Of a DNA stretch of 64,000 nucleotides, positions 42,114 through 64,000 are shown one piece after another. Position 1 is the first letter of the stretch; each line of letters begins with the position of its first letter. Source of the stretch: Dipodascopsis uninucleata var. uninucleata (Eukaryota; Ascomycota; Lipomycetes; Lipomycetales; Lipomycetaceae); contig JAJLTO010000008.1 of the NCBI GenBank assembly GCA_030568195.1, positions 620,001 to 684,000 of the forward strand, read 5' to 3'. The notes below the pieces were generated by a model that searched no databases, had not been told where the DNA came from, and saw nothing but the letters and a program-made list of their open reading frames with translations. A program made the position numbers and the translations under genes.

Positions 42114-43448
42114 ATGAGGAACACGAGGTATGCTACTTCTCGGCAAAAAGCTTGCCAACAGTGCTCGAATGCTAAGGCGAGATGCGATCGTAAGGCCGGG
42201 CGCTGTACGAGGTGTACGCAGAGAGGTCTCTCATGCGTGTATCCTCAAGCAGTGCGAAGAGACTTAACCCCAAAGATCAGTGTTAACGATGAGGAGAGGT
42301 TTTATAATTCTTTGCCTGCAGCTGATGCTCTGTTCCCATGCCCTGAAAGTGAGCCATCGACAATAGACAGCTTGGAAGGTCCGAATTCTACGTTGACAGA
42401 GTCTATGATAAATACCGAGACCGTTAGCACCTCAAGAGACGATGCCATTAGTACCTCCACTGTGGCTGTCGAGAGAGTTCTGTTTTCAAGAAGTCCCGTA
42501 CCTAATTCCACTAAACGAATGCCTGATAAGCCAGATGCTCTTGACTTCTCAGACTTAAAGCTCATTTGTCCCATTAAAGCTGATGATATTACTAACCGCT
42601 GGCTGAATCCTTACATTCCGGTTCCTGGTCAGACAGTCAAAGAATATCCTGCCTCTATCACTTCCTTTATAGACCGTATCTTGAAGTCATACGCAGCCAT
42701 GTCGTCCCGTGGTCAGAGTATTCCGCCGTTTGTTCATCACACACAGCTGATCGCACAACCAGTCGGATCACCACTTGCTACGTGCTTAAGCCTGGTTCGG
42801 ATATGCGAACAGCCGTTACAAGGATCTGAAGATTCGTTAGCTACTATCCTTCAGCGGGAAATGGATAATATAATTGAACTACATCGAGATTTTGATGGCA
42901 TGACCCTGCTTTCTGCATTTCAAGCTTATCTTATATACTCGATGGTTCTTTTTTTCCGCCTCAACCAAGGCTGCAACCGCTTTCTCCGGCAAGCGATGAT
43001 TCACCTTCAGCAACTTGCCTGCTCGTCTTCAAAGCAAGGGTTAGTGTGTACGGCAGATCAAAAGCGTACTCGTCCGAGATGGGAAGAGTGGATTGTAACC
43101 GAGGCGAAGCGACGAACGCTTTTCGTAATGTACCTTTTCGATAGCGCACTTTCTACTCACGAAAACGTTCCCACCTTTCTGGGCACTGAACTACGAGGGC
43201 TTCCTGCACCAGGAAGCAAGTCTTTGTGGCAAGCACAATCTCGATCCAATTGGGAAAGGGCTTACAATATTTACCTGGTGGAGTGGATGGAGTGGAGCCT
43301 TACTATCGACGAGCTTTGGCCAATTCCTAAGGATTTGGACGTGTCTGAGATTGCCAAAAGACGAAGAAGAGTAGATCAGTGGTTGGAAAGTGTCGATGAA
43401 TTTGGAACAATGCTGTATGCAATAGTGTGCTGTACACATGGTGGTTAA
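42114..43448 (+). CDS. Zn2Cys6 transcription factor, regulator B
   Basis: Zinc-cluster regulator, 444 residues, one exon, so short for the class. The cluster lies at the extreme N-terminus, CQQCSNAKARCDRKAGRCTRCTQRGLSC, with C-X2-C-X6-C-X6-C-X2-C-X6-C spacing. The first ATG gives a 13-residue lead before the first Cys, which is normal. The C-terminal half has a reduced fungal regulator domain with MTLLSAFQAYLIYSMVLFF, EEWIVTEAKRRTLFVMYLFD and FLGTELRGLPAPGSKSLWQA. It converges on the isochorismatase-like gene with 100 bp between stops, and the next gene is a DHA1 transporter. A regulator, hydrolase and efflux pump side by side is a common fungal micro-cluster layout (general knowledge). It is unrelated in detail to regulators A and C. 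Confidence 0.88.
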   Translation: MRNTRYATSRQKACQQCSNAKARCDRKAGRCTRCTQRGLSCVYPQAVRRDLTPKISVNDEERFYNSLPAADALFPCPESEPSTIDSLEGPNSTLTESMINTETVSTSRDDAISTSTVAVERVLFSRSPVPNSTKRMPDKPDALDFSDLKLICPIKADDITNRWLNPYIPVPGQTVKEYPASITSFIDRILKSYAAMSSRGQSIPPFVHHTQLIAQPVGSPLATCLSLVRICEQPLQGSEDSLATILQREMDNIIELHRDFDGMTLLSAFQAYLIYSMVLFFRLNQGCNRFLRQAMIHLQQLACSSSKQGLVCTADQKRTRPRWEEWIVTEAKRRTLFVMYLFDSALSTHENVPTFLGTELRGLPAPGSKSLWQAQSRSNWERAYNIYLVEWMEWSLTIDELWPIPKDLDVSEIAKRRRRVDQWLESVDEFGTMLYAIVCCTHGG

Positions 43449-43548
43449 GTTCAATTGGCTAATACTGCTAATAGCAAAATTAAGATCTAGTTGGAATGAA
43501 ATATCCATCTTCAAAAAATTCCTATGTTCATAGGGTTCAATTCTATCT

Positions 43549-44178
43549 TTAATCCAGTGCCTGAAGGGCCTCACTGAGCGAAATCGCCCTTAAATTCATC
43601 TTGGGAAGCAGAGTATCTAGCAGCACTTCTGATAAAGCTGTATTCTGATCCACCGGCAGTTCCAACACGTTATTTGTAATGACATGAATGTTGTAATCTA
43701 AGTCAAATAACCGATAAATGGTGCTCATAACAACGCCTGACAGACTCAAGCCGGAAATGACAACGGTATCTACTCCCCGAGTTTTCAAAATTTGCTCCAG
43801 ACTATTACCGGTAGTAGCAGACCACCTTGTCTCGTGAACTACCATATCTCTTTCATCGACTGTGAAGCGGCAGTCGACTTGAATCTCAGGCGAATCATCT
43901 TCAAAAGCTCCGAATGGTGCGAGAAGTCTTGAAAACGGCTTATTACTTTCTAGCTCGGTCTGTACGCGACTGAAGGCGAGAGTTGTGAAGATAGTCAGAG
44001 GACGAGAGGACATCTGGTGTATTGCGTCGTTACACCGACAGCAATTTGCAATTAATACCTGTTCTTCTACTGTTTCTTTGATAGAATTTATAAGAATAGG
44101 CATCTAATCGAGATTGAGAACTGCATAGCTTTGACCGAAGCTCGGAGAGTTAACGATTGATTGTACTGTGGGAGCCAT
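43549..44178 (-). pseudogene. Isochorismatase-like protein, in-frame stop in conserved N-terminus
   Basis: The main frame, 44103-43549, encodes 184 residues: RPLTIFTTLAFSRV, VHETRWSATTGNSLEQIL, VDTVVISGLSLSGVVMSTIY and LFDLDYNIHVITNNVLELP, all typical of fungal isochorismatase-like proteins. Upstream in the same frame an ATG at 44178 reads 24 codons ending SYAVLNLD, the first strand of the fold with its catalytic Asp. It is interrupted by TAG at 44106-44104, where I recall Trp in relatives (TGG to TAG would be one change). So this is either a recent pseudogene, a gene restarting at 44103 without its first strand, or a readthrough case. The position of the family catalytic Cys is occupied by SLSG, so even an intact copy may be non-catalytic. 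Splicing out of the stop looks unlikely, since the only donor would be GTACAA. Confidence 0.7.
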
Positions 44179-44515
44179 TTGACCTACAGACTTATTATTA
44201 AGAACTGAATAGACGAGTGCATGAACGCTATAAAATATTACAGAATTTATGTCGAATATCGAGTTTCAGGTCTGGCGTTAGGCACCTAATTATTAGGATC
44301 ATAAGTGCCCTGACTAGAGAGCCTTGCGGTAATTCAGAATCTCAGCTCCGGATGATCGACCTCAACTCCGAAGTCCTATGAATTCTTTGTAACAGTAGCA
44401 TACGCCTTGAAATTTATAAATAAATGCTTGCCCTCTTCCTTTTTCGTTTATAAAAATATCTATCCTGCATTCTTAGGACTGCAATCTCTCTCAATCAATA
44501 ATCAGCTAGTATCTC
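44179..44515. promoter_or_regulatory. Divergent promoter, isochorismatase-like / DHA1 transporter
   Basis: 337 bp between two divergent genes. It contains a TATAAATA about 100 bp before the transporter ATG and no coding sequence. Shared control of both genes is plausible. Confidence 0.55.
44415..44422 (+). promoter_or_regulatory. TATA box of DHA1 transporter
   Basis: TATAAATA about 100 bp upstream of the transporter ATG, at a normal yeast spacing. Confidence 0.5.
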
Positions 44516-46117
44516 ATGTCTGCAGAAGATCGGAATGAACAGACACAGAGTACTTCATTATCGAAATCACCATCCGCCATTGCAGTTACGCCCTTCAGTA
44601 TCTTTGACAATAGACAAAAAAACTTAATAATCCTCATTGCTTCCATTGCTGCAACTTGTGAGTATAGAATAGATCGCAATAACCTATGTTTGACTCGCTA
44701 ATGTGTATTAGTCTCCGGTTTCGCATCCAATATCTACTTTCCTGCTCTACCGACTATTGCAAATGATCTGAATGTATCGCTAGAGCTAGTAAATCTTACA
44801 GTTACCTCATATCTCATTTTCCAAGGCATTGCTCCTAGCATATGGGGCCCACTGTCCGACGTGAAAGGACGTCGAGTTGCATACACTGTCACTTTTTTAG
44901 TATTTTTAGGCGCTTGTGTTGGCTTAGCACAGACAGAGAACTACGCCACTTTGATCATTCTCAGATGCGTCCAAAGCTCGGGTAGTGCAAGCACAATCGC
45001 TATAGGATCTGGCGTAATCAGTGATATTACCACTCGTGCTGAGCGAGGAGGTTTCATGGGAATTTTTCAGGCAGGTTTACTCGTGCCTGTGGCTGTGGGA
45101 CCGGTGGTCGGAGGTGCTTTAGCTGGATCTTTAGGATGGAGGGCGATCTTCTGGTTCTTGACCATCTATAGTGCTGCCTTTCTTGTTGCCTTGCTTCTTT
45201 TACTGCCTGAGACGCTTCGATCGGTGGTCGCAAATGGGAGCCGGGTGCCATCCAATATATTTTTCAGATATCCATTGAATGTCTACCAGAAGCTCACTAA
45301 AGTCCAATGGGAACCCAAATCTATGCCGCTAAATCCTTCGAGTCCTAAGAGCATCGACATCACTGGACCATTCCGTATTCTTATAAGCAAACACGTCGCT
45401 CCCATCATTATATTTCTCGCTGTATATTATGCTGTATGGCAAATGAGTATCACTGCAATGTCTAGTCTCTTCAAAGCCCGCTATGGCCTTGGTGAGATCC
45501 AAATTGGTCTTACATTTATAGCCAACGGTGTAGGCTCAATGATTGGGACTCTGATTACTGGCAAAATCCTTGATGCGGACTACCAGCGCGTCAAAGCGAA
45601 GCACGAGTCTCAAATATCTTTCGTGAATGCCGAAGATAGTAACGGTCTCACTGTTGTCACTACCAATGAAAACAGCCACTTTCCAATAGAGAAAGCGCGG
45701 CTCCGACTAATTCCTTTATTTTCTTGTTTTCAATGCCTGTCTCTAATTGTCTTTGGCTGGACAATCCAATATCCTGACCACGTCCATATTGCAGTTCCTA
45801 TCGTGTCAACCTTCATTACAGGATGGACCGCTGTCTCCATGCAGTCGGTTATTATGACCTATCTTGTTGACATCTTTCCCGATAGAAGTGCTGCTGCGAG
45901 TGCTAGTCTCAATCTAGCCAGATGCTTGTTCGCTGCTGGTGGTACGAGTATCGTGACGCTGATGATAGACGGTGTTGGGGTTGGGCTAACATTTACCATA
46001 TGCGTTGCTGTGCAACTTTTGGCGCTGGTCGGTCCTCTTATACAGTTGAAATTCGCGAATACATGGAGAAATGAGGCAGAAAAACACAAGGCACAAACCG
46101 CGGAGCCTAAGGAGTGA
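44516..46117 (+). CDS. MFS drug:H+ antiporter, DHA1 family (QDR-like)
   Basis: Plasma-membrane multidrug exporter driven by the proton gradient. Exons 44516-44657 and 44712-46117 give 515 residues; the 54-bp intron has a GTGAGT donor and joins SIAAT to FSGFASNIYFPALP. A polar N-terminus is followed by about 12 hydrophobic helices. Family motifs seen are NIYFPALPTIA in TM1, the MFS loop GPLSDVKGRR (motif A), ILRCVQSSGSA (motif B area) and the TM5 antiporter motif GPVVGGALAG (motif C). A central cytoplasmic loop has about 60 residues. The ending TWRNEAEKHKAQ is soluble. It is divergent from the isochorismatase-like gene. Confidence 0.92.
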
Positions 46118-47117
46118 TGGCTGTTTAGGACTACCGACTGTTATCGCTCCAGCAAAATATCTAGCGACATTGTTATCATATACGATCCTTTCCCACTGAT
46201 ACAGCTTCAATTTTCACCATTATCCCATCCCCTCTTCGCTGGCGCTTTATGAGGTGACGCGAAGCCATACTAATCATTCAGAAGTCGCTAGGATCAGCCA
46301 ATGCAGCAATAAGACGAAAAGAGTATCATTTTAATCAAAATCTGGAATATGTATGCACTGCTACTATATATAGCGAGAGACAGAATACATTACTATCAAT
46401 ATATAGAAGATATTCAATGAGGACTTGACTCTTCGTCGAACACTAGTCGTATCCCACCACCTGAGCCGCACAAACGCATAATAGACTGCAATGACGTAGA
46501 AGAATAGGGCAATGTGAATTATTAAGCACTATTAATTTAATTAGTAATCGTATAAACGATATTAAAGATATATTAATGACTGACTGATTGTTTAAGCTAC
46601 GACTGTTCGTGGCATGATATGACGAGAAGTGCTTCTAGTGGTTTGCTGATATGTATTGCTCGTAAATATTCCTACTGTTCGACGGTATTAATCACAAATA
46701 TTGCTAGCACTTGCCACTAGGTTTGTGCTAATTACTATACAATTTCTGGCTTTCTATAGCGCTGTATTTTAGCTATTACTTCTATTTACTACTTGTACTG
46801 TTCATGATTTTATATACCAATTTTTATTACTACTATTACTACTGTGCTGCTTGCCTGATATTTTATTTATTAATTTCAAATTTTTTGTTTATTTATTTTT
46901 TTTTTAATTATTTTCAGTTATTATCTAGTGGTATTAGTATTATATCAATTATTCTAGGAATACCAAAATTTTATAGTCCTTTAATGCTAATTACGAAACA
47001 AGGCAGCTGGCAAAACATAATAGTTTACCATCACGGCAAAGAAAAACCAATGTAACATCTAGTTACAGTGGCTCCATCTGTTCACCATAAGTATTATGAA
47101 TAATATGAAGCTCTTAC
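46118..47117. other. Intergenic between convergent transporter genes
   Basis: About 1 kb between the DHA1 transporter (plus) and the PDR ABC transporter (minus), strongly A+T-rich near 46.5-46.9 kb. An 83-codon plus-strand frame there is Tyr/Phe/Ile-rich low-complexity sequence and is not believed. It should hold both 3' UTRs. Confidence 0.6.
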
Positions 47118-50100
47118 TTACTTGAAGAGTTTCTTAAAGGAGCGAATGAGTCTTCCAGGTCGAATCCAGGTACACTCTCGTGCGAAGTAATAAGACGCAT
47201 AGCATAACACGACATTTAAGAAGATAAATGCGATGCTAACCCCAAGGTCACGCCATCTGGTGCTGTAACTGAAACCAATGGAAGTTAAGAAGTCGTCGCC
47301 AGTGGCATACTGACAATACTTGCAACTCTCAGTAGCCTCAGGGTTCAAGAGAACACCAAGAGTGCTATTGTGCACCCACTCGCCAGCATACTGATTGCAT
47401 GTCATGCCAGTTGGCGGATTGAAAACAGCAAGCTCAGTATCTGCACAGTTAATCTCAACACCATGAATTGCGGTACTGAATAATCCACGGATCATCCAAG
47501 AAAGAGGATTGATCCAGTAAATGAAATACTTATAAAACCCGTTCATCTGTGTATATGGAATAGATATACCAATAGTCAAATGTGAAGAAACGAAAAACAG
47601 CGGATTAATAACACCTACAGCATTCATAGAAGGTACGAAGCCACCCATAAAAATACCGATATGACCATTCCATAGAAACAAAATAAGAATCATAAAGAAT
47701 CCATACCCAGCAGCAGAAGAATTTGTCGGAAGATTTGTCATATACCAGAATGTCGGGTAGAACAAAACAGCGCCGATAATCAGGTAAGGAATAATGCACA
47801 AAATGTACGCAGTAACTAAAGCGACCCATGAAAATATCTTGGCTCTTCGCTCACGAAGCTCATACAAATCTCGTGCATTAATGAAGTGGATCTCATACGA
47901 ATTGATCACTGGAATGGTGGCAAGCAAGATGAAGTATACAGCAAATCCACGATCTTGCGCTTCAACAATGGAATTTCCAAGGTCAAAAAATAGAATACCA
48001 CCAGTGATACCAGTGAACAGAGCTGCAAACAGGAACGAATAGCCTAACGATGGAGTTCTCCACATTGTAAGCCAGTGGCGCATAGTAACAGCCTTTATCT
48101 GTTCAAAAATAGGCGCTGCATATTCTGCATCACTGTCAGCACCCTCGCGAATTGGTGGAGGATTTTGCTTCCATTCTTCTTCTAAAATGTCGATTTCACG
48201 TCGTCGTTGCATAATCTCATCTGACTCTCGCCAGACTTGTGGCCAGTTAACTGTTGATCTCCGTGTAGCACCCGCTCCAGTAGCTTCAAGAATATATTCA
48301 GCTGGATTGTCACCTGGCCGCGGTGGCTTAGCATGTCTCGAGATATAGCCAACGATGACACTACCATTTTCACCAATCGGACCGAAGTACACAGTTTTAC
48401 CACCTCGTCCCAAAAGTAAGATGTTATCAAACTTCGAAAACAGAACAGCAGAAGGTTGATGAATTGTACAAATAATACCAATTCCAGATTGTAAAGCAAG
48501 CCTGCGTAAAAATGTGATAATCGAGAATGAACCTTCGGAATCTAAGCCTGAAGTAGGTTCATCCAGAAACAGAATAGACGGTCTCGCAGCTAGCTCGACA
48601 CCAATTGTAACTCGCTTACGTTCTTCAACAGATAAACCAAATCCAACATCATCGATAATAGCATCTGCAATTCCTCTAAGATCAAGAAGATCTATAATTT
48701 CTTCTACAAAGGAGTATTTATCTTCCAAAGTAACGCTAGCTGGCTGTCGCAGTCTGGCAGAGAATCGCAGAGCTTCTCTGATGGTCTGCTTTGGCTCATG
48801 TAAGTCTTTCTGTTCTACAAATCCAGTAGTACGCTGAAACGCCTTGTCCAATGGTCCACCATTTAGTTTAAAGTCACCGGTCACGACCCCAACTGACATT
48901 CGTTGAGAAATAGTGTTTAACAAAGTCGTCTTTCCTGCACCAGACGATCCCATAAGAGCTAATAGCTTTCCAGGTGCCGCAAAGCCTTCGACGTGATCTA
49001 AGAGTAGTTTGTCGCCATCAGAAGTAGGCACAGTATATGTGATATCTCTGAAAGTGAACAAAGAGCCACGAACGGAAGAATCTTTTGTTACCTCATCAGA
49101 ACCGTCAGAACTATTTCCTTTTTTATCAAGCTCAGCGCATTTTAACCTGCTGTCGATCTCCTGAGTGGGAGGCTTAGTAAAGTATTTGGTTTGAGCAGAT
49201 GATGAATTATGGTTGACAATCTCTGAGAATATCATCTGGAAGGACACAAAGAAGACGAAGAATCCTAGAATAATACCAAAGTTACGCCATAAGTGGACAT
49301 ACCAGAAATCCAATTGAGCAGCAAGATAGTCCTCTCCTGAAACATAGCTTCTTCCGGTGACAGCACCAGGAACAGCGCACGCTTGATTTTCAAGCGATGC
49401 ACCTTCAATGTCAGGAACTAAAGTATCGCATTTCATTTCTCGACCATGAAATTCATTAACTAAAATACTTTCGAAACTGTACAAAACTGGATCACAATAG
49501 TAAAACCATCTAAACCACCATTGCATGTTACTAGCTGGTCTAACATATCCCGCCCAAAAGTAGATACAATTCAGAACAATGGCACAGTATCTCAGACAAG
49601 AGTCAACGTTGCCACAAAAAACTGCAAATGCCCTGTAGAAGGCCATCATCATGAACGTATTCAACTCTACAAACAAAAAACACACAAAGAACGCACCAGC
49701 AGTACGATGAGCATTCACCATGAGATAAACTATCACGAAAAACAATGCCACTTGAGAGAATATAATAGGAAAGTCTGCAACCGTCTTAGCTAGAATATAA
49801 GCTGACTTTCGAAACATACCAAAACCAACATGTTTCGAGAGTAAAGGACGCTCAGAAATCGACTCTGCAGCAGCAACTTGTAAAATCCACGAAGTAAAAC
49901 ACATGATGAAGAAGAGAATACCGCCACGTGCATATGCACCAGATGTATTCAAATTGAGGTTGAAGAAAAGAGAGCCAAAAGTAAATGCCACTACAATAGC
50001 ATTGATCACCTTAACTTTCAGTAATGCCTGGTCCTGCCACTGTAATTGCAGATCACGAACGACAATTTCCTTCACTTGCTTGAAAAATGATACCATGTAC

Positions 50101-51590
50101 GGAGAAGAGCGCCCAACAGTCTTAGACTTTTGTAATTGAACAGCCTGATGAAATTGGGCCACAGTTTCATGACCAGTATTCGCCAATTCAGTCTCGTACG
50201 ATTCAACATCTGCTAAGGTCTGGGTATAGAACTTGGATGCCTTATAGGCAGCCTCCAAGTCTTCGGGTGTCTGCGGCGCCCGGCCTTCCCAGCCAGTCCT
50301 GATCTTGCGCTCTGCAGGATGAGTAATCGAGGTCAAGAAATCCGCAGTAGTCATGAGCCGTTCTCGCTCGAAACCTAAACTTTCGAAATAAGCAGAGGCT
50401 TCTGACGCTGGACCAAAGAAAATTTGACGACCACTATCGATGAGACAAACTTTGTCAAACTCTTCATAAAGACTCTCACCAGCCTGATAGAGAGTAACAA
50501 TAGTAGTACAATATGTCAGATTTGTAAGAATTCTGAGGGATCTAATGTAGTCGACAGCAGTAGAGGAATCAAGACCTCGAGTAGAGTTGTCAAAAGCAAC
50601 AATTGCAGCTCTGTTGGCCAGTACCTCGGCAATAGAAACTCGCTTCTTTTCTCCACCAGATACGCCAGAGACCAACGTGTTCATAGTATGAGAAATACCA
50701 AACATTTTTCCATAAAGATCAACTAGCTTGTTTACAAAGTCTTTGCTACTCTCGCCCATGGCACGAACCCTAGGCGTCTTCAGACTCAGCGCAAACTTCA
50801 ATGTCTGTTTAACAGTAAGTGTTGAAATATGACGATCATCCTCCTCATTAAAAACTATTTCTCCCCTATATTTCTTCTTGGCAGTAATATGGTCTATGCC
50901 GTCATACAAAACTTCACCGTCAACAGACGCGTAACCTTCGCGCTGGTTTGTAAGCACTTTTAGGAGAGTCGTGGTTCCCGAGCCAGGCGATCCAAGCACG
51001 AGAAGCATTTCGCCCGAACGGACTAAACCATTAAAGTCATACAAAATTGTACGTATTGGCACTTCTGGTCGTAAACTGGGAATTTTACTCTTAACCCACT
51101 TAATTAGACTACCACCGACACCATCGACGACGGCATCCCAGACATTGGGAACAATGTTGGCACCAGAGTCGACACCGATGACAGAGAGATTCTTGAAACA
51201 GACACCAATCTTCTTTAAACCAATGCCGCTCTGTGCACTCTTCTCAGTATCGTTCTTGATCCACTCAGCGAGATTGAAACCTTCAGTTTCTTGTTCAGTC
51301 TTGTCTTCGAAGCCAATGCTCTGCTCGTCATCTGCAGCAGAAGCTCGAGATCGAATATTCTGAACCTGAGACAACCTTGACAGCTCGCGCGTGAGCTCCT
51401 GGAACTCATACTCGGCTTGTTCAATTTCCACGCCATCACCGCGGATATCCTCTCCCCAGCGGCCGCGCTCCTGATCAGTGATCACGACCTCGCTGGTAGG
51501 TTGCTCAATTTTCTCCATTTTTGCTGCTGACTGATTTGACAGTTTCGCAGAACCAGTGGTACTCTTGGAGGCACTGTCAGACACTGTCAA
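47118..51590 (-). CDS. PDR-type (ABCG) full-size ABC multidrug transporter
   Basis: ATP-driven exporter of the plasma membrane, 1490 residues, one exon, arranged NBD1-TMD1-NBD2-TMD2. NBD1 has a degenerate Walker A, GSPGSGTTT near residue 200, lacking the usual Lys as in other PDR proteins, signature VSGGEKKRVSIAE and Walker B FDNSTRGLD. NBD2 has a canonical Walker A GSSGAGKTT near 877 and Walker B LFLDEPTSGLDSE, but its signature is replaced by LSVEERKRVTIGVE. That pattern of complementary defects is normal for the subfamily. Each TMD has about six helices with a Cys-containing extracellular loop before the last helix (NCADTELAVFNPPTGMTC in TMD2). The 2-kb upstream region shows no obvious PDRE (TCCGCGGA). 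Confidence 0.95.
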   Translation of the reverse strand: MTVSDSASKSTTGSAKLSNQSAAKMEKIEQPTSEVVITDQERGRWGEDIRGDGVEIEQAEYEFQELTRELSRLSQVQNIRSRASAADDEQSIGFEDKTEQETEGFNLAEWIKNDTEKSAQSGIGLKKIGVCFKNLSVIGVDSGANIVPNVWDAVVDGVGGSLIKWVKSKIPSLRPEVPIRTILYDFNGLVRSGEMLLVLGSPGSGTTTLLKVLTNQREGYASVDGEVLYDGIDHITAKKKYRGEIVFNEEDDRHISTLTVKQTLKFALSLKTPRVRAMGESSKDFVNKLVDLYGKMFGISHTMNTLVSGVSGGEKKRVSIAEVLANRAAIVAFDNSTRGLDSSTAVDYIRSLRILTNLTYCTTIVTLYQAGESLYEEFDKVCLIDSGRQIFFGPASEASAYFESLGFERERLMTTADFLTSITHPAERKIRTGWEGRAPQTPEDLEAAYKASKFYTQTLADVESYETELANTGHETVAQFHQAVQLQKSKTVGRSSPYMVSFFKQVKEIVVRDLQLQWQDQALLKVKVINAIVVAFTFGSLFFNLNLNTSGAYARGGILFFIMCFTSWILQVAAAESISERPLLSKHVGFGMFRKSAYILAKTVADFPIIFSQVALFFVIVYLMVNAHRTAGAFFVCFLFVELNTFMMMAFYRAFAVFCGNVDSCLRYCAIVLNCIYFWAGYVRPASNMQWWFRWFYYCDPVLYSFESILVNEFHGREMKCDTLVPDIEGASLENQACAVPGAVTGRSYVSGEDYLAAQLDFWYVHLWRNFGIILGFFVFFVSFQMIFSEIVNHNSSSAQTKYFTKPPTQEIDSRLKCAELDKKGNSSDGSDEVTKDSSVRGSLFTFRDITYTVPTSDGDKLLLDHVEGFAAPGKLLALMGSSGAGKTTLLNTISQRMSVGVVTGDFKLNGGPLDKAFQRTTGFVEQKDLHEPKQTIREALRFSARLRQPASVTLEDKYSFVEEIIDLLDLRGIADAIIDDVGFGLSVEERKRVTIGVELAARPSILFLDEPTSGLDSEGSFSIITFLRRLALQSGIGIICTIHQPSAVLFSKFDNILLLGRGGKTVYFGPIGENGSVIVGYISRHAKPPRPGDNPAEYILEATGAGATRRSTVNWPQVWRESDEIMQRRREIDILEEEWKQNPPPIREGADSDAEYAAPIFEQIKAVTMRHWLTMWRTPSLGYSFLFAALFTGITGGILFFDLGNSIVEAQDRGFAVYFILLATIPVINSYEIHFINARDLYELRERRAKIFSWVALVTAYILCIIPYLIIGAVLFYPTFWYMTNLPTNSSAAGYGFFMILILFLWNGHIGIFMGGFVPSMNAVGVINPLFFVSSHLTIGISIPYTQMNGFYKYFIYWINPLSWMIRGLFSTAIHGVEINCADTELAVFNPPTGMTCNQYAGEWVHNSTLGVLLNPEATESCKYCQYATGDDFLTSIGFSYSTRWRDLGVSIAFIFLNVVLCYASYYFARECTWIRPGRLIRSFKKLFK

Positions 51591-53638: not shown

Positions 53639-54793
53639 CTACCACTCTCTGATGCCACCGTCGGGGCCGAAAAACACGCCGGACCGCCAAGATGCTGCAC
53701 CTTGCGAGAGCTCGCGCACTCTTGCTTCGTCTACTTGGATGCCTAGCCCAGGCCCATCGTGCACGCTGACATGGCCGTCATGCACGTCGAAGACAGAAGA
53801 GTCTGCTACGTAGGTGTTGATGTCGTAGCCGCCAGCTTCAATGTTGTAGTGGATGCCCAGCGACATCTCCTGTATCGTGTGGTTAGGAGTGCAGGCTGCG
53901 ATCTGCAGGCACGCTGCCAGCGCGATAGGTCCTAGCGGGCAGTGGGGGGCGATTGCAACGTCATAGGCTTCGCACATCGTCGCGATCTTCTTGAGTTCGG
54001 ATATGCCGCCTACATGTGCAATGTCGGGTTGCAGGATGTCCACGATCGTCGCTGGACTGAGAAACTTCTTCACGTCCCAGCGACTGTACAGGCGTTCGCC
54101 CAGCGCGATTGGCGCAGTGGTCAGTCCTGCGAGCTCTGCTATGCCCTCATAGTTCTCTGACAGCAGCGGCTCTTCGATGAACATTGGTCGAAGCGGCTCA
54201 AGCAGCTTAGCCAGCTGCTTGGCCATCGGCTTGTGGATTCGACCGTGGAAGTCCACGCCGACGTCCATCCCCAGTGCCTTGACGGTACGCACGCGGTCCG
54301 CTGCGGAGTCGAGGATGCTAGGGCTGTCCAGCCAGTTTACGTCTGCAGTAGCGTTCATTTTAACCGCCGAGAAGCCCTGTTCCTTTCGCGCAAGCGCCTG
54401 CAGCTGGACGTCGTCTGGACGATCTCCTCCTATCCATGCGTAGACCTTGACCTTATTGCGTACTTTTCCTCCTAGCAGCTCATATATCGGTAAATTCATC
54501 CTTCGAGCCTTCAAGTCCCACAGTGCGATGTCCAGGCCCGAGAGCGCTGATTGCATGACAGGGCCACCACGGTAGAAGGAATGGCGCCAGACGGCCTGCC
54601 AGATGTTCTCTATATCGTTTGCCTCGACACCTGTGAACCGAGCTTTGAATGCTTCTAGCATTCCTTCGACTGCCTCGCTGTTGCCTTCCAGTGATGCCTC
54701 GCCCCAGCCAGTCTCGCCCTCTTGATCCGTTATTTTGACAAATATCCAGCGGGGCGGCACACGAAAATACTCGATACTTTTGATCTTAGGCAT
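53639..54793 (-). CDS. D-galactonate-dehydratase-type enolase-superfamily enzyme 1
   Basis: Mg-dependent sugar-acid dehydratase of the mandelate racemase subgroup, 384 residues, one exon. It follows E. coli DgoD closely: IEYFRVPPRWIFVKI start, WGEASLEG, FYRGGPVMQSALSGLDIALW, then the active-site set D181 and H183 (DFHGR), E207 (FIEEP), E233 (LGERLYSR) and H284 (APHCPLGPIALAA), and an ending PDGGIREW. Expected reaction is dehydration of an aldonate to a 2-keto-3-deoxy acid. D-galactonate is the best guess; L-rhamnonate or another aldonate is possible because fungal substrates in this group are few. It is head to head with aldolase 2, which would use the product. Confidence 0.88.
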   Translation of the reverse strand: MPKIKSIEYFRVPPRWIFVKITDQEGETGWGEASLEGNSEAVEGMLEAFKARFTGVEANDIENIWQAVWRHSFYRGGPVMQSALSGLDIALWDLKARRMNLPIYELLGGKVRNKVKVYAWIGGDRPDDVQLQALARKEQGFSAVKMNATADVNWLDSPSILDSAADRVRTVKALGMDVGVDFHGRIHKPMAKQLAKLLEPLRPMFIEEPLLSENYEGIAELAGLTTAPIALGERLYSRWDVKKFLSPATIVDILQPDIAHVGGISELKKIATMCEAYDVAIAPHCPLGPIALAACLQIAACTPNHTIQEMSLGIHYNIEAGGYDINTYVADSSVFDVHDGHVSVHDGPGLGIQVDEARVRELSQGAASWRSGVFFGPDGGIREW

Positions 54794-54887
54794 TGTTGGC
54801 TGTTTCTACTCTTTAATAGCGACAACTGGCTACACCTATGCGTAGATGCTTAGCGTAATATTCTTGGCCTATATATTTACGTCTATG

Positions 54888-54909
54888 TATATATATATAT
54901 ATATATATA
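54888..54909. repeat. (TA)n microsatellite
   Basis: Eleven uninterrupted TA units. Confidence 0.9.
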
Positions 54910-54996
54910 CTTTTCGCCGATATGATTTGACTATCCGGTGTACAGTGTATATAGTGTGAAAGCGATGTCTACATACATATGTTGCGTACGTATGTA

Positions 54997-55014
54997 CATA
55001 TATATATATATATA
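54997..55014. repeat. (AT)n microsatellite
   Basis: About nine AT units, roughly 90 bp from the other TA run in the same promoter region. Confidence 0.9.
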
Positions 55015-55390
55015 CGCATACAGAGCATATACAGGAATATAGGCGCCTTGCTGCCTACTTACAGGCTTTTCTGTGGAGTCATATAGCTATGGGCTCCTGC
55101 ATTCTCGGAGAATGACACGAGAGTCCCGGAGACCATGGCGAGTTTGCCAACAAAGATAATGAGAAACCCGCACAACGAATAGTTTCCTTGGCTACGGGAT
55201 TTTTTGATCTCAACTCTCACCAGAACAGCAGCTCTTGTACCTCAGCCCATTCAGCTATTTTCTGCGAGTTTACCCCGCCCCGCTCATATCAAATATATTT
55301 CATGTCAAAATACAGTACTACGGCTACGTTGCCCTGAAGCACGGATAAAGTTCAACGCAAGTGTCTCCGAAACATAATGTTAAGCCGCAC

Positions 55391-55406
55391 GCGGATAAGT
55401 ATCCGC
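55391..55406. promoter_or_regulatory. GCGGATA-N2-TATCCGC palindrome (candidate Zn2Cys6 site)
   Basis: Perfect 7-bp arms around two bases, giving inverted triplets CGG-N8-CCG. It lies about 400 bp upstream of aldolase 2 and 600 bp upstream of dehydratase 1. Inverted CGG pairs are the classic target of Zn2Cys6 dimers, so this is a candidate operator for the local regulators. Inference only. Confidence 0.45.
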
Positions 55407-55808
55407 AAATCCCCTAATTGGTTTTACAATTTGTACATTTTTGAGCTACAGTCGCCCAGACGTTCGGCAGAGATAGTCACCACAATTTGACGACCAATGT
55501 TTCTGATTCAATTACAGAATATCACTGTATCCCACAAAACAAAAACAAACGGGAGATAACTGCAGGATAATGGCGATAGCTGCGTGTAGTAGAGAAAATT
55601 ATATGGGGATGCTTCCCCGCATCCATGACTCTGTAGGCTGTGTTGCCAGCAGTATATAGAGCTACTATTTAACAGTAAGATACCTGAAAAGGAGAAGAAG
55701 AAAGAGCGAATCATCGCTTTGTGAAGAAATATAGAAGTTGTAGACGACAAGAAATAAGTGTCTGGAGAAGTATTTAAGACCTCAAGAATATAGTCTGCTA
55801 TCTACACC

Positions 55809-56786
55809 ATGACTGGATCAAGACCTCCTCCATCTGGAATCTACGTCCCGGCACCAACATTCTTTGTTGGAAAGCAGGCTTCCACATATTCAATTTACAA
55901 CCCTCCGCTTGATTGCGAAACACAGCTTCAGCACACTCTTTTTCTCGCAAAAAATGGTATTCGTGGAGTAGTGCTGCTTGGATCAACCGGTGAAGCAGTC
56001 CATTTGTCTAATGACGAGCGCTCGCAAGTCCTCTCTTTCGTCCGCAAGGGCTTGGACGACGCTGGCTATACACAGTTTCCAATCATCGCAGGGACTGCTG
56101 CAAATTCTGCAGTAGAGACAGTACAGCAGCTTGAGGATGCCAAAGCCTGCGGCAGTGAGTATGGTATGGTGCTCGCTCCATCTTACTTTGCGTCTGCAGT
56201 TACTCAACAGGGCCTTATTGAATGGTATACAGAAGTAGCTAATAGATCACCCATCCCTATCTTGATTTACTACTATCCTGGTGTATCAAATGACATTGTG
56301 ATCAAGATCTCGACTTTCGAGCAGCTTGCTAAGCATCCTAACATTGTTGGCTGCAAGCTGTCACATGGTAACATCTCTCACCATATACTCTTGGCACAAT
56401 CGCCTGTGATCTTGGAAAATAATTTCTCTGTCTTTAGCGGAATGAGCCGCCAACTACTTCCTGTAGTCGCTATTGGAGGAGCTGGTGCGATCGATGGCTT
56501 GGCAGGTATATTTCCCAAGTCAATAGTGCATTTGTTTAACCTGTCGCAGGCAGGAAAGATTGCTGAGGCTCGCAAAGTTCAGTATGCTGCCTCACGTGCA
56601 GAGGAGGCTTTTGCTAGCCTCGGAATTATTGGTGTCAAGGAAGCTGCCAGTAGGTTCCTTGGCTTGGGAGAACGTGATGGGGGACGTATTCCTCTGCGTG
56701 GAGGACTCGAAGGCGGAGAAGCTGTCTGGCAGGAAAAATATGAGCCTTTATTCAAGGACATTGCCGCCCTCGAGGCTACTTTGTAA
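55809..56786 (+). CDS. Aldolase 2, DHDPS/NAL family (2-keto-3-deoxy-sugar-acid type)
   Basis: Schiff-base lyase of the DHDPS/NAL family, 325 residues, one exon. The carboxylate loop is GSTGEAVHLSNDER, the catalytic Tyr154 lies in LIYYYPG, and the Schiff-base Lys183 in VGCKLSHGN. It has the fungal-style start PPPSGIYVPAPTFF and an inserted YNPPLDCETQ before the first helix. The overall layout resembles GaaC-type 2-keto-3-deoxy-galactonate lyases more than aldolase 1 does. Its position, head to head with one dehydratase and tail to tail with its paralogue, argues that it cleaves their product to pyruvate and glyceraldehyde (or lactaldehyde if the substrate is a deoxy acid). Stereochemistry of the substrate is not readable. 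Confidence 0.87.
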   Translation: MTGSRPPPSGIYVPAPTFFVGKQASTYSIYNPPLDCETQLQHTLFLAKNGIRGVVLLGSTGEAVHLSNDERSQVLSFVRKGLDDAGYTQFPIIAGTAANSAVETVQQLEDAKACGSEYGMVLAPSYFASAVTQQGLIEWYTEVANRSPIPILIYYYPGVSNDIVIKISTFEQLAKHPNIVGCKLSHGNISHHILLAQSPVILENNFSVFSGMSRQLLPVVAIGGAGAIDGLAGIFPKSIVHLFNLSQAGKIAEARKVQYAASRAEEAFASLGIIGVKEAASRFLGLGERDGGRIPLRGGLEGGEAVWQEKYEPLFKDIAALEATL

Positions 56787-57097
56787 ACAATATCGTACTA
56801 CTGTTCTAGGTTACTTATGTATTCCATAGTTTAATAATAAATAAAGCGCCTACTTTAGAATCGATAACAATAGTACACTATATTTTACGTATCTTAACCT
56901 TACTAGAAAAAGAAGTATATCACAGTAAATATTAACACGAAAGGATCTTAAATGACAATCACATGTATTAACAGCTATCATTTTATAATAATCAAATGTC
57001 TACAAAAGAAAAAGCATTATACAGATACCTCACAACAAAAAGTGCAAAACTGAACCATATAACAAAAAGAATAACGAACATGCTGCATCAAGACCTT
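56787..57097. other. Short intergenic region between convergent genes
   Basis: About 310 bp of very A+T-rich DNA between the stops of aldolase 2 and dehydratase 2. It should hold both 3' UTRs; no other element seen. Confidence 0.7.
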
Positions 57098-58486
57098 TTA
57101 CCATTCACGAATACCTCCATCAGGTCCACGCCAGACAGGATTACGCCATGAAAAGTCCTTGAATTCCTCAGCAGCCTTGCGGACGAGATCTTCGTTAATT
57201 TCGATACCAAGACCTGGACCACCAAGGGCATTGACAAAACCACGCTCGACAGCAAAGACCTCAGGGTTGGTCATGTAGGTGAAGAGATCATAATCAGAAG
57301 CAGCATTATAGTGCATCTTCCATGACATTTCACAAATAACAAAGTTAGGAGTAGAAATGGCGATCTGCAAAGAGGCAGCGAAGGCTATAGGACCAAGAGG
57401 ACAATGTGGAGCGACACCAATATCATAAGTCTCAGCCATTGATGCAATACGTTTGGTCTCAGAAATACCACCAGAGTGAGAAATATCTGGTTGGATAATG
57501 TCGATGCAGCCAGACTCAAAGTATGGCCTGCACATCTGACGTGTGTAAAGACGCTCACCAAGAGCCACTGGGATAGTGGTCTGCTCATACAATTTTTTGA
57601 GCTCATCGACATGGCCGGGAAGAAGAGGTTCCTCGATGAAAAGAGGAGAGTATGGCTCCAAGGCACGGGCAAGTTGCTTGGCCATAGTCTTGTGAAGACG
57701 ACCGTGGAAATCAAGACCAACATCAATACCAATTGAACGAACGTCTTTGATACGCTCGACAGTTGCCTTAAGGTCATCTGGAGAGGCTAACCACGCCAAA
57801 GACTCGACAGCATTCATCTTAACAGCCGTGAAACCCTGGTCTTTTCTGTCCTGGGCTTGTTTAAGAACGTCCTTAGGTCTGTCGCCGCCAATCCAACCGT
57901 AGACTGCAACCTTGTCACGTACCTTACCACCTAGAAGTTGCCAAACTGGAACACCGAGGGTCTTACCCTTTATGTCCCACAAGGCAATATCAAAACCAGC
58001 AATGGCCGACATCAGTACCTCGCCTCCGCGGTAGAATCTGTGTCTGTACGCAGACTGATCTGTGAGATGAGTTAGCAATCGATGTGCTAGCATTCTAGAC
58101 CCTTGCGTTTCGGCCGTCGCGCCACAGACGGCTTAAACATAACGCCTCCCCCTGAACTTATCCCGCACGCAAACTGCAATGACGCATGCCATTAGCAGCA
58201 CCAAGCAAAGAAAAGATCAGTTAGCTTACTTACAGATATCCTCGATGTTTGCAGCCTCCCAACCGATAAATCGCTCTTTGAAGTCTTCGAAAGCACCTTC
58301 AACAGCCTCAGAATGACCCTCAAGGGTGGCCTCACCCCATCCGACAATTCCATTTTCAGTCTCAACGCGGACAAACAACCATCTGGGAGGCACGCGGAAA
58401 GTCTCAATGCTCTTTATTTTGTCTGATGAAGCCGCAGTGACGGCTGGAAGGCCTTTGCGCTCGTCAGTTTCAAGTGGAGAAGGCAT
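57098..58486 (-). CDS. D-galactonate-dehydratase-type enolase-superfamily enzyme 2
   Basis: Paralogue of dehydratase 1. Exons 58486-58234 and 58059-57098 give 404 residues; the 174-bp intron joins NIEDI to YQSAYRHRFYRGG in frame. All expected active-site residues are present: DFHGR, FIEEPLL, LGERLYTR, ILQPDISHSGG, APHCPLGPIAFAA, and the same PDGGIREW ending. It differs by a 22-residue N-terminal extension (MPSPLETDERKGLPAV), which is not strongly targeting-like, and by the intron, which the paralogue lacks. Two dehydratases may handle different aldonates or different growth conditions. It is divergent from the KduD-like SDR. Confidence 0.88.
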
Positions 58487-59646
58487 GTTGTATGAACTAT
58501 ATGTACTGCAGAGCTAGACTTTGTTAAATTCAGATCCGCAACAGCCTAAAAACAACCAAATCACTCTCAAATATATGCGTATATACATATGTGTAGAATC
58601 TGCATGCGCACAGCTACAATATATATGTCTATATCATAAGATCATGAAGGCGATTGAATCTTGTACTTACCTGGGGAACTTTTTTAGTCTGTCTGATCGG
58701 CCACGAAAAGATGAATAACTGAAGATGTAGGGACACTACCTATATAAATAGGTGGTTTGGGCGACAACATGTTTTGAACGGGAAATATAACAGCAGAATT
58801 GGGATAGTTGATCAACCCGCAAGCCTAGTAAGAAGACTTTCTTGAGCTACCATACACTCTACCTTCTTAGTAGTGCTCCCCAAAATTTCTTGCATATACA
58901 AGCATTATGAGAACTCTATATTCAGCGTAGTCTGCAGCTGCTAGTCCGATATTGCACTAGTGTCAGCCGAATGTCAAAATTCAAGTGTGGCGTTACCCGG
59001 ACTAATCTCATTTAACTGTGGGATTATCCCGCGCGATCGTTTTTCTTCCTTTTCAGGCATTTAGTGCGTGGCAATCTCGGTTACCATCGATAGCCGGAAC
59101 AGTTGTGCGACCACGAAAGAATGCACTCCCACGCGTCGACGCGCCCACACGGCACATTGCAACCCTTTTGTAAGCCCATGATAGACCTTAATGGCTATTT
59201 TCTATATCTGGTAAGGGTATACCCCACGCTCTTATTTTCGGTTCAATTGACAATATTTTTTTGTATGCACAATTCTGCAGCTAAAAAGGAGTGCAGTAGA
59301 GTTTAGTGTGTTAGTGTGTCACAAGTGACACAGGCTACTAGAACAATCGGGAAATCTGGCTATCCATCCGAGAAGAGAAGGTCAGTTTCCGCGTCATTAT
59401 TCCACGTATATATGCTATAGCTTAGGACTTTTTCGAAAAGTAGTGCTCGGATGGTCTAAGGTAATAATTGTTAGGATTGACAGTTTTTTGACTGGCGAAC
59501 AATAAGCGATTACTAAAGATTCTGTAAGCCTGCAGAAAGCGATCGCAGGTAAAAATAAATTAGATATTCTGATTATTTAGTGATTGATCTCTAGCGGAGG
59601 AAAAAAAGAACCGATATCATACAAAAAAAGGAGAGAAAAAATAAAA
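58487..59646. promoter_or_regulatory. Divergent promoter, dehydratase 2 / SDR
   Basis: About 1.16 kb between two divergent genes of the cluster. It contains a CGCGTCGACGCG palindrome (listed separately) and a looser CGG/CCG pair near 59.08-59.1 kb (CGGTTA and TAGCCG). No coding sequence is supported. Confidence 0.55.
59132..59143. repeat. CGCGTCGACGCG palindrome
   Basis: Perfect 12-bp palindrome about 500 bp upstream of the SDR gene. It contains no CGG triplet pair of the classic Zn2Cys6 spacing, so its role is unclear. Confidence 0.6.
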
Positions 59647-60532
59647 ATGGGCGTATCAGAAAATCTCTTGAAGATGTTCTCTTTGGAGGGCAAGACTGCA
59701 CTGGTAACGTATGTACCTGAATAAGATCTTCAGATAGATATAGTGACTGGTCAAGTAATAGTAAATCGCTGACAAAATATTTTATAATAGTGGAGGTACG
59801 CGTGGTATTGGTGCGGCCATAGCTATCAGTTTCGCAGAGGCGGGTGCCAACGTTATCTTACTACAGCGAGATACATCGAAGACAGATACGAGGGATAAAA
59901 TCAATTCTCTTGACACAGGTGCTAAGGCAACTATTGTACAGTGTGATCTCTCCGATGCAGCACAGGTGAAGGGCATTGTTTCCCACATCACCAATGATCT
60001 TGGAATGATAATTGATATTCTTGTCAATTGTGGAGGTATTCAGCGACGCCATCCCGCAGAGATTTTTCCAGATTCCGACTGGGATGAGGTGCTCCAGGTC
60101 AATCTGAACACTTGCTTTACCCTTGCTCGTGATTGTGGAAAGCATATGCTCGAATCTTATGAGAAGGATCCCTCGTATAACCGTAAGATCATTAATATTG
60201 CGTCTCTAGTCTCTTACCAGGGTGGTGTCACTGTACCAGCTTACACTGCTGCCAAGCATGGTATCCTTGGCGTGACCAAGGCATTGTCCAACGAGTGGAT
60301 CTCCAAGGGTATCAATGTTAACGCTGTCGCTCCGGGATACATTGCAACTGAGATGAATACTGCTTTAATTAATAATCCAACTCGATCTCGTCAGATTATG
60401 GAGCGCATTCCAGCAGGTCGCTGGGGTACGCCTGATGATTTTAAGGGAGCCCTTGTGTTTCTTGCATCTCCCGGCTCCAACTACGTTTCTGGAGAATGTA
60501 TTGTTGTTGACGGCGGATGGATGGGACGATAA
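59647..60532 (+). CDS. KduD-like short-chain dehydrogenase
   Basis: Classical SDR of 267 residues. Exons 59647-59708 and 59791-60532; the 82-bp intron splits the cofactor motif TGGTRGIG. The catalytic set is Ser159, Tyr172 and Lys176 ([20 protein letters not shown]). The stretches [62 protein letters not shown] and VVDGGWMGR closely follow bacterial KduD / 2-deoxy-D-gluconate 3-dehydrogenase, which reduces 5-keto-4-deoxyuronate-type ketones. In this cluster it may oxidise or reduce a keto- or deoxy-sugar acid connected with the dehydratase step. It does not resemble fungal L-rhamnose 1-dehydrogenase in detail. It is divergent from dehydratase 2. Confidence 0.88.
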
Positions 60533-60792: not shown

Positions 60793-61328
60793 TCATAGCT
60801 TGATAATCTGAGAAAGAGAGAGTCTGACTGCAACTCTCTTATCTCCAGCTGCAGCAAAGATTTTATCTACGATTTCTAACAGGATCCTTGCGCGGTTCTC
60901 AATAGATCCACCGTACTCATCTTCTCTGATTCGAAACATCTTGCAAGAATTGGTCCAAGAGAAAACCATTGGCCGCGTGTATTTCAACACCGTCGAAGCC
61001 AGCTTCCTGAGAATCAAGAGCCGTAGTGACAAAATTTCTTCAATCTTCTTTATTTCCTCAATAGTCAGAGCATGCGGAACGTCCTGATCTTCGCATGGAA
61101 TTGCACTAGCTGCAAGCCTTTCTACTGGATTAGCACTATGGTTTACTCGTCCTAGGCCAACAATTTGAGTAAAGATAAAGCTCTTTTTATCATGCGCTGT
61201 GTTGGTTACCTTTTTCCATTCTATAACTTGCTTGTCTGTAAAGGGACCTAGGGCGTTGTCGCGTCCTGGATTCTTGTCGAGACTTCAAGATCTCCTACTT
61301 TAATTCGAGTAAATAGAGGATCTGCCAT
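60793..61328 (-). pseudogene. Old yellow enzyme (NADPH dehydrogenase) relic
   Basis: The reverse strand starts MADPLFTRIKVGDLEVSTRI, the usual OYE opening, then jumps, without the roughly 80 residues that hold the first FMN-binding strands, to LGPFTDKQVIEWKK, SFIFTQIVGLGRVNH and ASAIPC. A frame change follows: ALDSQEAGFDGVEIHAANGF and LLDQFLQDVSNQR lie in a different frame from EDEYGGSIENRARILLEIVD. The sequence stops after RVAVRLS, so the C-terminal ~150 residues are missing. A typical OYE is about 370-400 residues, so this copy is about half a gene with at least an internal deletion and frame breaks. It is a host metabolic gene in decay, next to the SDR. Confidence 0.85.
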
Positions 61329-62726: not shown

Positions 62727-64000
62727 ATGGATATCAGTCTTATTACTGCTGCTAGCGAACGAGCAAGTCAGCAAAATGCAGATACCGTGCAGTTGGTGGA
62801 TGTCGACAATTCTAGCGACGTGGACTCGCAGGTCATGGAGAGCTCAAATCACAGCATGCAAAGCATGCGAGACGCCCTATTGCCGAAAGGAAGAACTGAC
62901 AAGTCCAAAAGAAAGCGCGCCTACAAAGCCTGTCTGAACTGCAGAAAGCGCAAGGTATGATTGCCGTTAATTACATCACTCTAAGGCTATTGGTCTTGTA
63001 CTAATAATATATTTTCGTGTTACAGGCAAAATGTATCTTCCCTCCTGATATGGCCTTCATCCCACCATGTATCCGCTGTCAGCGAGAAGGCTGCGAGTGT
63101 AGATTTGTTCCTTCTCGTAGAGGAGGGCGCAGAGTGAAGAAGTCATCTACAGAAGAGGCTCGTGACCCTAGGGAGCCAGCACAAATAGAGTCCAATAACC
63201 CAGAAAACGAGAATAACTTAACGGCAAGTGATTCCAGACTGGCAGATAAAGAAGCGAATGTCAACAACGGCGACCAATTTGAATATCATGAGAATATTCA
63301 TGGTCACCAGACACAAGAAAAGAAGATAGATGCACACGAAAGCACCCAAGTAGATACGGAAACTCTTGCATTCTCCATGATGAGAAATCCTTCCGACGCG
63401 ATAAGCCTTTTAACTCAGGCATCGCTGTATTCGAGCAAAAAGAATGGTTATTACACCCAAGACGACGAAGATGACGAGGAAGAGTCCAGTGCACACTCGG
63501 ATGACGACTCAGCAGAAAAATCTGTAATGGGAGACGGCTTAGACGATGCGCAGATAAGATCAAGAGCCCGACTTTCTGTGTATCCATCAAAAAAGCTGAA
63601 AAGGACACCTCTGGAGAAAATAGCTGCTTTCCCGCTTATAAAGAAGGGTTATATAAATCCTACTCAACTGAGAACTTATGTGTCGATATACTTTACAAGA
63701 CACAATCATTATCTACCTCTTATGCCATTGGCTCACATTCCCAAGAATGACGAGATGCTGAGTGATTTCGCAGAGCGAGAACCATTTCTTCTTATAGCGA
63801 TGATAATTGTTGCGTCTCGCTTCGAAAATTGCGCTGTTCATGAAGCATGTTGGAAATACATGCAAACGATAATCAGCGATTTAATGTTTGGAACTGAGCC
63901 CACTGTCGGTGCTGTAGAAGCGTTGATGCTTCTCTCTGAAAATATCCCTAGATTTCCGCATGTCGAGCAATCACAAATACACTATTACGAAGAACGGACG
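62727..64000 (+). CDS. Zn2Cys6 transcription factor (ARCA/Aro80-like), regulator C, 3' end off window
   Basis: Zinc-cluster regulator, cut by the right edge. Exons 62727-62954 and 63026->64000. The cluster reads CLNCRKRKAKC...PPCIRCQREGCEC with the same C-X2-C-X6-C-X11-C-X2-C-X6-C spacing as regulator A. The 71-bp intron splits it exactly between KRK and AKC. Shared blocks with regulator A are VDTETLAFS.MRNPSDAI, GYINPTQLRTYVSIYFTRHN, EPFLLIAMIIVASRFE, CWKYMQTIISDLMFGTEPT and VGAVEALMLLSENIP. Over 117 aligned residues I count 83 identities. An acidic run (DDEDDEEESS) lies in the linker. Its location next to the SDR/dehydratase cluster suggests a local regulator (inference). Confidence 0.92.

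Follow-up and report, generated by a model that had tools for sequence, protein, structure and literature searches.

Introduction

Non-phosphorolytic breakdown of D-galactonate has been described in a fungus, Aspergillus terreus (Elshafei and Abdel-Fatah 1991, as related in the available part of the review PMC11219438). There, a D-galactonate dehydratase is followed by direct cleavage of 2-keto-3-deoxy-D-galactonate (D-KDGal) to pyruvate and D-glyceraldehyde. A survey from 2022 (PMC9781776), in the text accessible to us, lists the fungal pathway, gives the DGD dehydratase in several copies and calls the penultimate (aldolase) step "still elusive". A D-galactonate dehydratase gene of A. niger is already in use, according to excerpts of PMC8113861 (where Motter 2014 is cited). 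Here we analyze a 64,000-nucleotide stretch of the Dipodascopsis uninucleata var. uninucleata genome (contig JAJLTO010000008.1, positions 620,001 to 684,000; hereafter the window), in which two genes of the galactonate dehydratase family (D1 and D2), a pyruvate aldolase gene (ALD2) and a gene for a short-chain dehydrogenase/reductase (SDR) lie side by side. Judged from their sequences, these four genes probably supply the central steps of non-phosphorylating D-galactonate breakdown in this yeast-like fungus of ascomycete type.

Results

Organization of the four-gene cluster

D1 and ALD2 diverge from one another, as do D2 and SDR, and ALD2 and D2 converge. The features of the segment are as follows (coordinates are those of the window).

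53639-54793, minus strand: D1, galactonate dehydratase family (DgoD-like), 384 amino acids, intronless
54794-55808: D1/ALD2 divergent intergenic region, 1,015 bp, with TA-rich stretches
55809-56786, plus strand: ALD2, DHDPS-family class I pyruvate aldolase, candidate D-KDGal aldolase, 325 amino acids, intronless
57098-58059, minus strand: D2 exon 2, galactonate dehydratase family
58060-58233, minus strand: D2 intron, 174 bp, GT..AG; the join restores the alignment to D1 and to bacterial DgoD
58234-58486, minus strand: D2 exon 1, start codon at 58486
58487-59646: D2/SDR divergent intergenic region, 1,160 bp
59647-59708, plus strand: SDR exon 1
59709-59790, plus strand: SDR intron, 82 bp, GT..AG; its removal restores the family alignment across the junction
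59791-60532, plus strand: SDR exon 2, KduD-like sugar-acid dehydrogenase

With the introns removed, D2 (57098-58486, minus strand) encodes 404 amino acids and SDR (59647-60532, plus strand) 267; the start of the raw SDR open reading frame, at 59966, is not the start of the gene. Pfam domains are MR_MLE (N- and C-terminal) in D1 and D2, DHDPS in ALD2 and adh_short in SDR, the scan of D2 and SDR having used the long exons only. Top NCBIfam scores are 503, 520, 127 and 297 bits for D1, D2, ALD2 and SDR, respectively, and the family matches lie far above chance. The four-gene cluster is real: order and strands of the frames bear out an initial annotation of this DNA, made from the sequence alone, which had described four intact genes in two head-to-head pairs meeting tail to tail. 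Its term "mirror-arranged" is correct for the orientation of the genes and incorrect if taken to mean an inverted duplication, because ALD2 and SDR are unrelated, though D1 and D2 are paralogous (57% identical). The window as a whole is eukaryotic and fungal in character, with introns, Zn2Cys6 regulators, a PDR-type ABC transporter and fungal EIF3I, SDH2 and folate genes.

D1 and D2 belong to the galactonate dehydratase family

Family membership was assigned by scoring the proteins on NCBIfam models and comparing the scores with the curated cut-offs. Both dehydratases are members of the galactonate dehydratase family: the equivalog model NF010624 is passed by D1 with 503.4 bits and by the joined D2 protein with 520.1 bits (cut-off 311). 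Both fail the models for rhamnonate dehydratase (NF011968; 108.8 and 121.4 bits for D1 and D2, cut-off 393), mannonate dehydratase (ManD; 207 and 225 bits, cut-off 550) and gluconate/galactonate dehydratase of the GnaD type (NF040790; 223.9 and 258.4 bits, cut-off 750), and they score far below passing on the arabinonate and talarate/galactarate dehydratase models. The catalytic set of DgoD, which we take to be Asp183, His185, Glu209, Glu235, His285 and Glu310 in E. coli numbering, is kept at six of six positions in both proteins, whereas position 185 is Trp in E. coli RhmD. The top Protein Data Bank (PDB) match of D1 is 3rr1, a putative D-galactonate dehydratase (384 bits; the next match scores 188). 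Since the galactonate model is passed, the other dehydratase models are failed and the catalytic residues are kept, the substrate class of D1 and D2 can be read from their sequences. The initial annotation was right, as also seen in the trees described below, in recognizing two DgoD-type dehydratases with a full active-site set; its view that the substrate was not readable has to be given up.

ALD2 is a class I pyruvate aldolase

By its sequence ALD2 is a lysine-type (class I) pyruvate aldolase. It scores 116.5 bits on Pfam DHDPS (cut-off 22.1), and the alignment shows that it keeps Tyr133 and the Schiff-base Lys161 of this family (DapA numbering), as had been claimed for it, together with the Ser/Thr of the SxTGE-type loop. 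The column of DapA Arg138 holds Val in ALD2; because of this replacement a DapA role in lysine synthesis was ruled out. The dapA model TIGR00674 is failed as well (127 bits, cut-off 206). By sequence and by predicted fold, the nearest solved structures are the uncharacterized Coccidioides protein 3qfe and human HOGA1 (4-hydroxy-2-oxoglutarate aldolase); the predicted fold, with a mean predicted local distance difference test (pLDDT) score of 76.5, adds nothing beyond the family assignment. Plasmid-borne relatives of ALD2 (11 records) are 27-32% identical at their best places. Matches occur in 262 of 299 genomes of one phylum, with identities of at most 37% among the matches listed.

A further DHDPS-family gene, ALD1 ("aldolase 1" of an earlier numbering; 34026-35015, plus strand), encodes a protein that shares 30% identity with ALD2 across 306 columns; a GxxGE-loop position occupied by Thr in ALD2 is Asn in ALD1. 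Between the two aldolase genes, at 42114-51590, the window encodes two transporters (one MFS, one PDR-type ABC), an isochorismatase-like protein and one more Zn2Cys6 factor.

The SDR is most similar to KduD

Among 234 families compared, the best match of the SDR is KduD (TIGR01832, 296.9 bits), consistent with its earlier description as KduD-like, though the cut-off of 338.85 is missed. The gluconate 5-dehydrogenase/IdnO models are failed (NF006070, 213 bits against 279; NF005488, 203 against 369; NF005983, 191 against 408). The protein is 42% identical to E. coli KduD and 35% to IdnO; its closest plasmid-borne relative is 53.5% identical, and the closest plasmid relatives are partly annotated as KduD. 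Inspection of the alignment by eye reveals an IQRRHP stretch and a TEM-type stretch in common with the 5-ketogluconate reductase IdnO, and a resemblance to KduD at an SYQGG-like stretch and at the C-terminus. The role of this enzyme would be that of a 5-keto-aldonate dehydrogenase or a keto-deoxy-acid dehydrogenase. Descent from a bacterial SDR linked to dgoD was not supported, as identity to the SDRs adjoining bacterial dgoD genes is 27-34%.

Downstream of SDR, at 60796-61284 (minus strand), lies a piece of an NADH:flavin oxidoreductase gene (Oxidored_FMN, 65 bits), with further pieces in other frames; this looks like a decayed gene.

Origin of the dehydratase genes

The history of D1 and D2 was approached through trees of bacterial and archaeal DgoD relatives. 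Both proteins sit inside the DgoD tree, separate from RspA and RhmD. The first tree (53 rows) was made after 5 of 53 locus rows had been dropped (L016, L023, L060 and L061 as duplicate places, L046 for its stops), which left 48. In this tree D1 and D2 form one clade (support 95/92) beside the DgoD proteins of Asticcacaulis and Sphingomonas, with a long-branch warning. In smaller trees, built with 25 of the 48 rows picked by hand among Bacteria and Archaea, D1 and D2 go to the same spot when placed singly and join at 98/87 when placed together. The group that receives them comprises five rows (Sphingomonas, Asticcacaulis, Niveispirillum, another genome and Deinococcus), is split from other DgoD at 100/100, and is small and mainly alphaproteobacterial. 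By raw identity each protein is nearer to the DgoD of Asticcacaulis excentricus (62% with D1 and with D2) than to the other, so D1 and D2 could conceivably have arisen separately. This DgoD group is sparsely represented: at E <= 1e-100, D1 matched 9 of 385 genomes (the class of genome G001) and D2 40 of 398 (the phylum of G001), mostly at about 50% identity. That D1 and D2 lie so near a few bacterial sequences may reflect an early acquisition of the dehydratase genes from bacteria.

The surroundings of the related bacterial genes vary. In Sphingomonas hylomeconis (L009, 1-13143), dgoD lies among genes for an FCD regulator, an SMP-30 lactonase, sugar ABC/sugar-binding proteins, an SDR, an aldose epimerase (mutarotase), a TonB receptor-like frame and a melibiase, which is a D-galactose-type setting. 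The dgoD gene of a Deinococcus plasmid (L019) adjoins genes for a KDGal kinase and an aldolase of the 2-keto-3-deoxy-6-phosphogalactonate (KDPGal) type, and that of Asticcacaulis adjoins a sugar porter and an SDR gene. A search of the DNA around dgoD in bacterial loci L009-L024 gave no match to ALD1 or ALD2 at 1e-5. Recent bacterial transfer of the whole cluster was not supported, ALD2 being without a close bacterial relative among the plasmid records and the genomes of one phylum compared.

The composition of D1 is peculiar. Its synonymous third-position GC is 0.635, against a mean of 0.391 (standard deviation 0.047) for 15 other genes of the window, and it has 18 CTG codons to the single one of D2. 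A reading of CTG as serine was not supported: the 18 codons mostly face leucine and never mainly serine. The segment 52500-54793, which includes D1, is GC-richer (0.50-0.59 in 300-bp bins), and this extends to non-coding DNA.

Regulatory genes and intergenic regions

Two Zn2Cys6 paralogues, 69% identical over 128 amino acids, lie about 27 kb apart. TF1 (35276-38392) adjoins ALD1 and TF2 lies after SDR:

62727-64000, plus strand: TF2, Zn2Cys6 transcription factor, runs off the window; Pfam Zn_clus 25.0 bits, cut-off 21

TF2 has its exon 1 at 62727-62954 and its exon 2 from 63026 (splice sites assigned by eye). TF1 and TF2 could be regulators of the four genes; nothing ties either of them to the cluster. 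Pairs of CGG/CCG triplets are spaced by 8 and 17 nt in one divergent region and by 13, 13 and 17 nt in the other, and the spacing of 17 is found downstream of D1 as well; a common regulator site in the two regions was rejected on the grounds that these spacings are not distinguishing. The N11 spacing of RhaR/PDR-1 was absent from all seven regions checked. The D1/ALD2 region contains a palindromic CGG-N8-CCG sequence, CGGATAAGTATCCG, at 55392-55405, the only perfect CGGnnn inverted repeat of the window with a spacer of 0-10, which is no rarer than expected by chance (one found, against a mean of 0.475 and a maximum of 3 in 40 Markov sequences).

Elsewhere in the window, positions 29635-30738 encode a zinc dehydrogenase of the sorbitol dehydrogenase type. 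Its top PDB match is a ketose reductase (234 bits), it scores 189 against 469 on the L-idonate 5-dehydrogenase model, and an upstream exon is likely near 31.3 kb (by eye).

Discussion

Proposed pathway

In the scheme we favor, D1, D2 or both would dehydrate D-galactonate to D-KDGal, one of the two possibly acting on a second aldonate. ALD2 would then use its Schiff-base lysine to split D-KDGal into pyruvate and D-glyceraldehyde, while the SDR, being of the KduD/IdnO kind, would interconvert the keto and hydroxy forms of a sugar acid, and in doing so would either supply the dehydratases with substrate or use the keto-deoxy acid as its own. The families of the four proteins point to dehydration of an aldonate and cleavage of the product to pyruvate and an aldehyde, in line with the initial annotation, and the divergent pairing of ALD2 with D1 was counted in favor of this scheme. 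Neither a KDGal kinase nor a KDPGal aldolase was recognized among the window's open reading frames that were scanned, which were not all of them. The sequences show the structures of the genes, their protein families and catalytic residues, and the place of D1 and D2 among galactonate dehydratases; the substrates of ALD2 and of the SDR, the cooperation of the genes and their regulation are what we infer. ALD2 is a good candidate for the D-KDGal aldolase because it is linked to two DgoD-type genes while the 2022 survey calls this fungal step elusive. A much fuller claim can be formulated, in which ALD2 would be the long-missing fungal D-KDGal aldolase within a complete D-galactonate unit, the dehydratases would descend from alphaproteobacterial genes and have split their substrates, and the SDR would make a second aldonate, with two acids converging on one aldolase; taken as a whole, this is doubtful.

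Several observations weigh against the D-galactonate assignment. ALD2 passes no specific aldolase model, neither dapA nor the archaeal KDG aldolase NF040954 (56 bits against 390), and next to its catalytic Tyr it has a second Tyr, at a position that is Asn in almost every aligned row. The name KDG aldolase is, in addition, already attached to an A. niger gene that has been put to use (PMC8113861, in the text available). A strain given both this gene and the A. niger dehydratase lost its growth on galactose and regained it only with an added bacterial kinase, so the same excerpts do not cleanly settle the aldolase question. Two further PDB chains labelled galactonate dehydratase give D1 only 136 and 97 bits. 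The dehydratases were also compared at the 122 columns in which 95% or more of 43 DgoD rows (42 locus rows, namely L009 and L017-L059 with L023 and L046 excluded, plus E. coli DgoD) agree. D1 departs from them at 13 positions and D2 at 10, against a median of 1 and a maximum of 8 when each reference row was left out in turn. Among the D2 changes, Gln is replaced by Cys, Gly by Lys and Ile by Met around the catalytic Glu310; the D1 changes are confined to the N-terminal portion and the vicinity of the C-terminus. Since departures are more numerous than in any reference row, D1 or D2 or both may have changed substrate; the two may both have drifted, with substrates that differ between them. Moreover, the SDR falls short of the KduD cut-off and is unlike the SDRs adjoining bacterial dgoD, and no promoter motif sets the two divergent regions apart.

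In a rival scheme, two aldonates would lead to one keto-deoxy acid. D1 would act on D-galactonate and D2 on an epimer that yields the same D-KDGal. The SDR, alone or together with the polyol dehydrogenase encoded at 29.6 kb, would make this epimer by oxidizing and then reducing C5, a sequence known from the bacterial conversion of L-gluconate to D-idonate. The changes around Glu310 of D2 and the stretches that the SDR has in common with IdnO fit such a scheme, and Paracoccus 43P is described in the accessible part of PMC12632266 as obtaining D-KDGal from D-idonate after C5 epimerization. We nevertheless hold it to be unlikely: bacteria dehydrate D-idonate with an enzyme of the UxaA/GarD superfamily, not of the enolase superfamily (PMC6336799, as excerpted), the SDR scores higher on KduD (297 bits) than on the gluconate 5-dehydrogenase models (213 at most), and departures from conserved columns are as frequent in D1 as in D2. 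The rank of KduD as top family and the KduD annotation of some plasmid relatives would also suit a unit centered on the SDR, with this enzyme making 2-keto-3-deoxy-D-gluconate from a diketo acid derived from pectate or alginate, ALD2 cleaving the product and the dehydratases serving as a side entry. Such a unit is improbable, given that the KduD cut-off is missed, that neither KduI nor a uronate lyase was found among the open reading frames scanned (again not all), and that two galactonate dehydratases are left unexplained.

The presence of an SDR gene with Zn2Cys6 regulators nearby recalls the yeast LRA genes for L-rhamnonate breakdown, which are clustered with such a regulator according to the literature available in part. 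An L-rhamnonate route was rejected on the family models (109 and 121 bits against 393), and its fungal aldolase is of the HpcH/HpaI family (PMC13158570, in the portion consulted) whereas ALD2 is of the DHDPS family; the probability left to it is very small. That the four genes might be mere neighbors with no common pathway finds some backing in the codon usage of D1, which is unlike that of 15 other window genes; D1 may have a separate history. Coincidence of this sort would have to bring together, within 7 kb and in two divergent pairs, a pair of dehydratase paralogues and an aldolase that could in principle use what they produce, and we give it little credence.

Comparison with known systems

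The D-galactonate pathway proposed here is known in fungi and not categorically new: the initial annotation had considered it notable in a fungus as such, but the 1991 work on A. terreus, the A. niger dehydratase and the DGD copies of fungi, as far as the sources were accessible, precede it. No report of a yeast cluster of this form was found in the open-licence PMC literature, which is weak evidence of absence. What is useful is the form of the cluster, which places ALD2 together with two DgoD-type genes and offers a candidate for an unassigned enzyme, because the fungal aldolase step is not cleanly settled in the literature available. If the proposal is true, it supplies the gene for the step of fungal galactose oxidation that the 2022 survey left unassigned, testable by one knock-out or assay, and an aldolase usable for making chiral keto-deoxy sugar acids. 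If the substrate is wrong, an ordinary fungal sugar-acid cluster is still at hand.

Compared with the A. terreus route, known in the account available from its enzymology, the Dipodascopsis locus consists of linked genes and includes two dehydratases and an SDR. The A. niger enzyme, compared by description from a partly available source, is likewise a fungal D-galactonate dehydratase, and the title of the paper names sugar acid dehydratases as a group; no clustering of its gene with one for an aldolase is mentioned in the excerpts. The fungal GaaA-C and LGD1/LGA1 systems, also set beside the cluster by description, combine an enolase-superfamily dehydratase with direct aldolase cleavage of the mirror-image keto-deoxy acid; their substrate, however, is L-galactonate. 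The lgn (L-gluconate) genes of Paracoccus 43P, in the text at hand, resemble the cluster in pairing a dehydrogenase/reductase couple with a dehydratase on the way to D-KDGal, and differ in that the dehydratase is of another superfamily and is followed by a kinase and a phospho-aldolase. The E. coli dgoRKADT operon (De Ley-Doudoroff) has in common with the locus a DgoD-type dehydratase, 45% identical to D1 and 47% to D2. In E. coli, however, a KDGal kinase and a phospho-aldolase complete the pathway, whereas here, with no kinase recognized in the frames scanned, a DHDPS-family aldolase stands next to the dehydratases.

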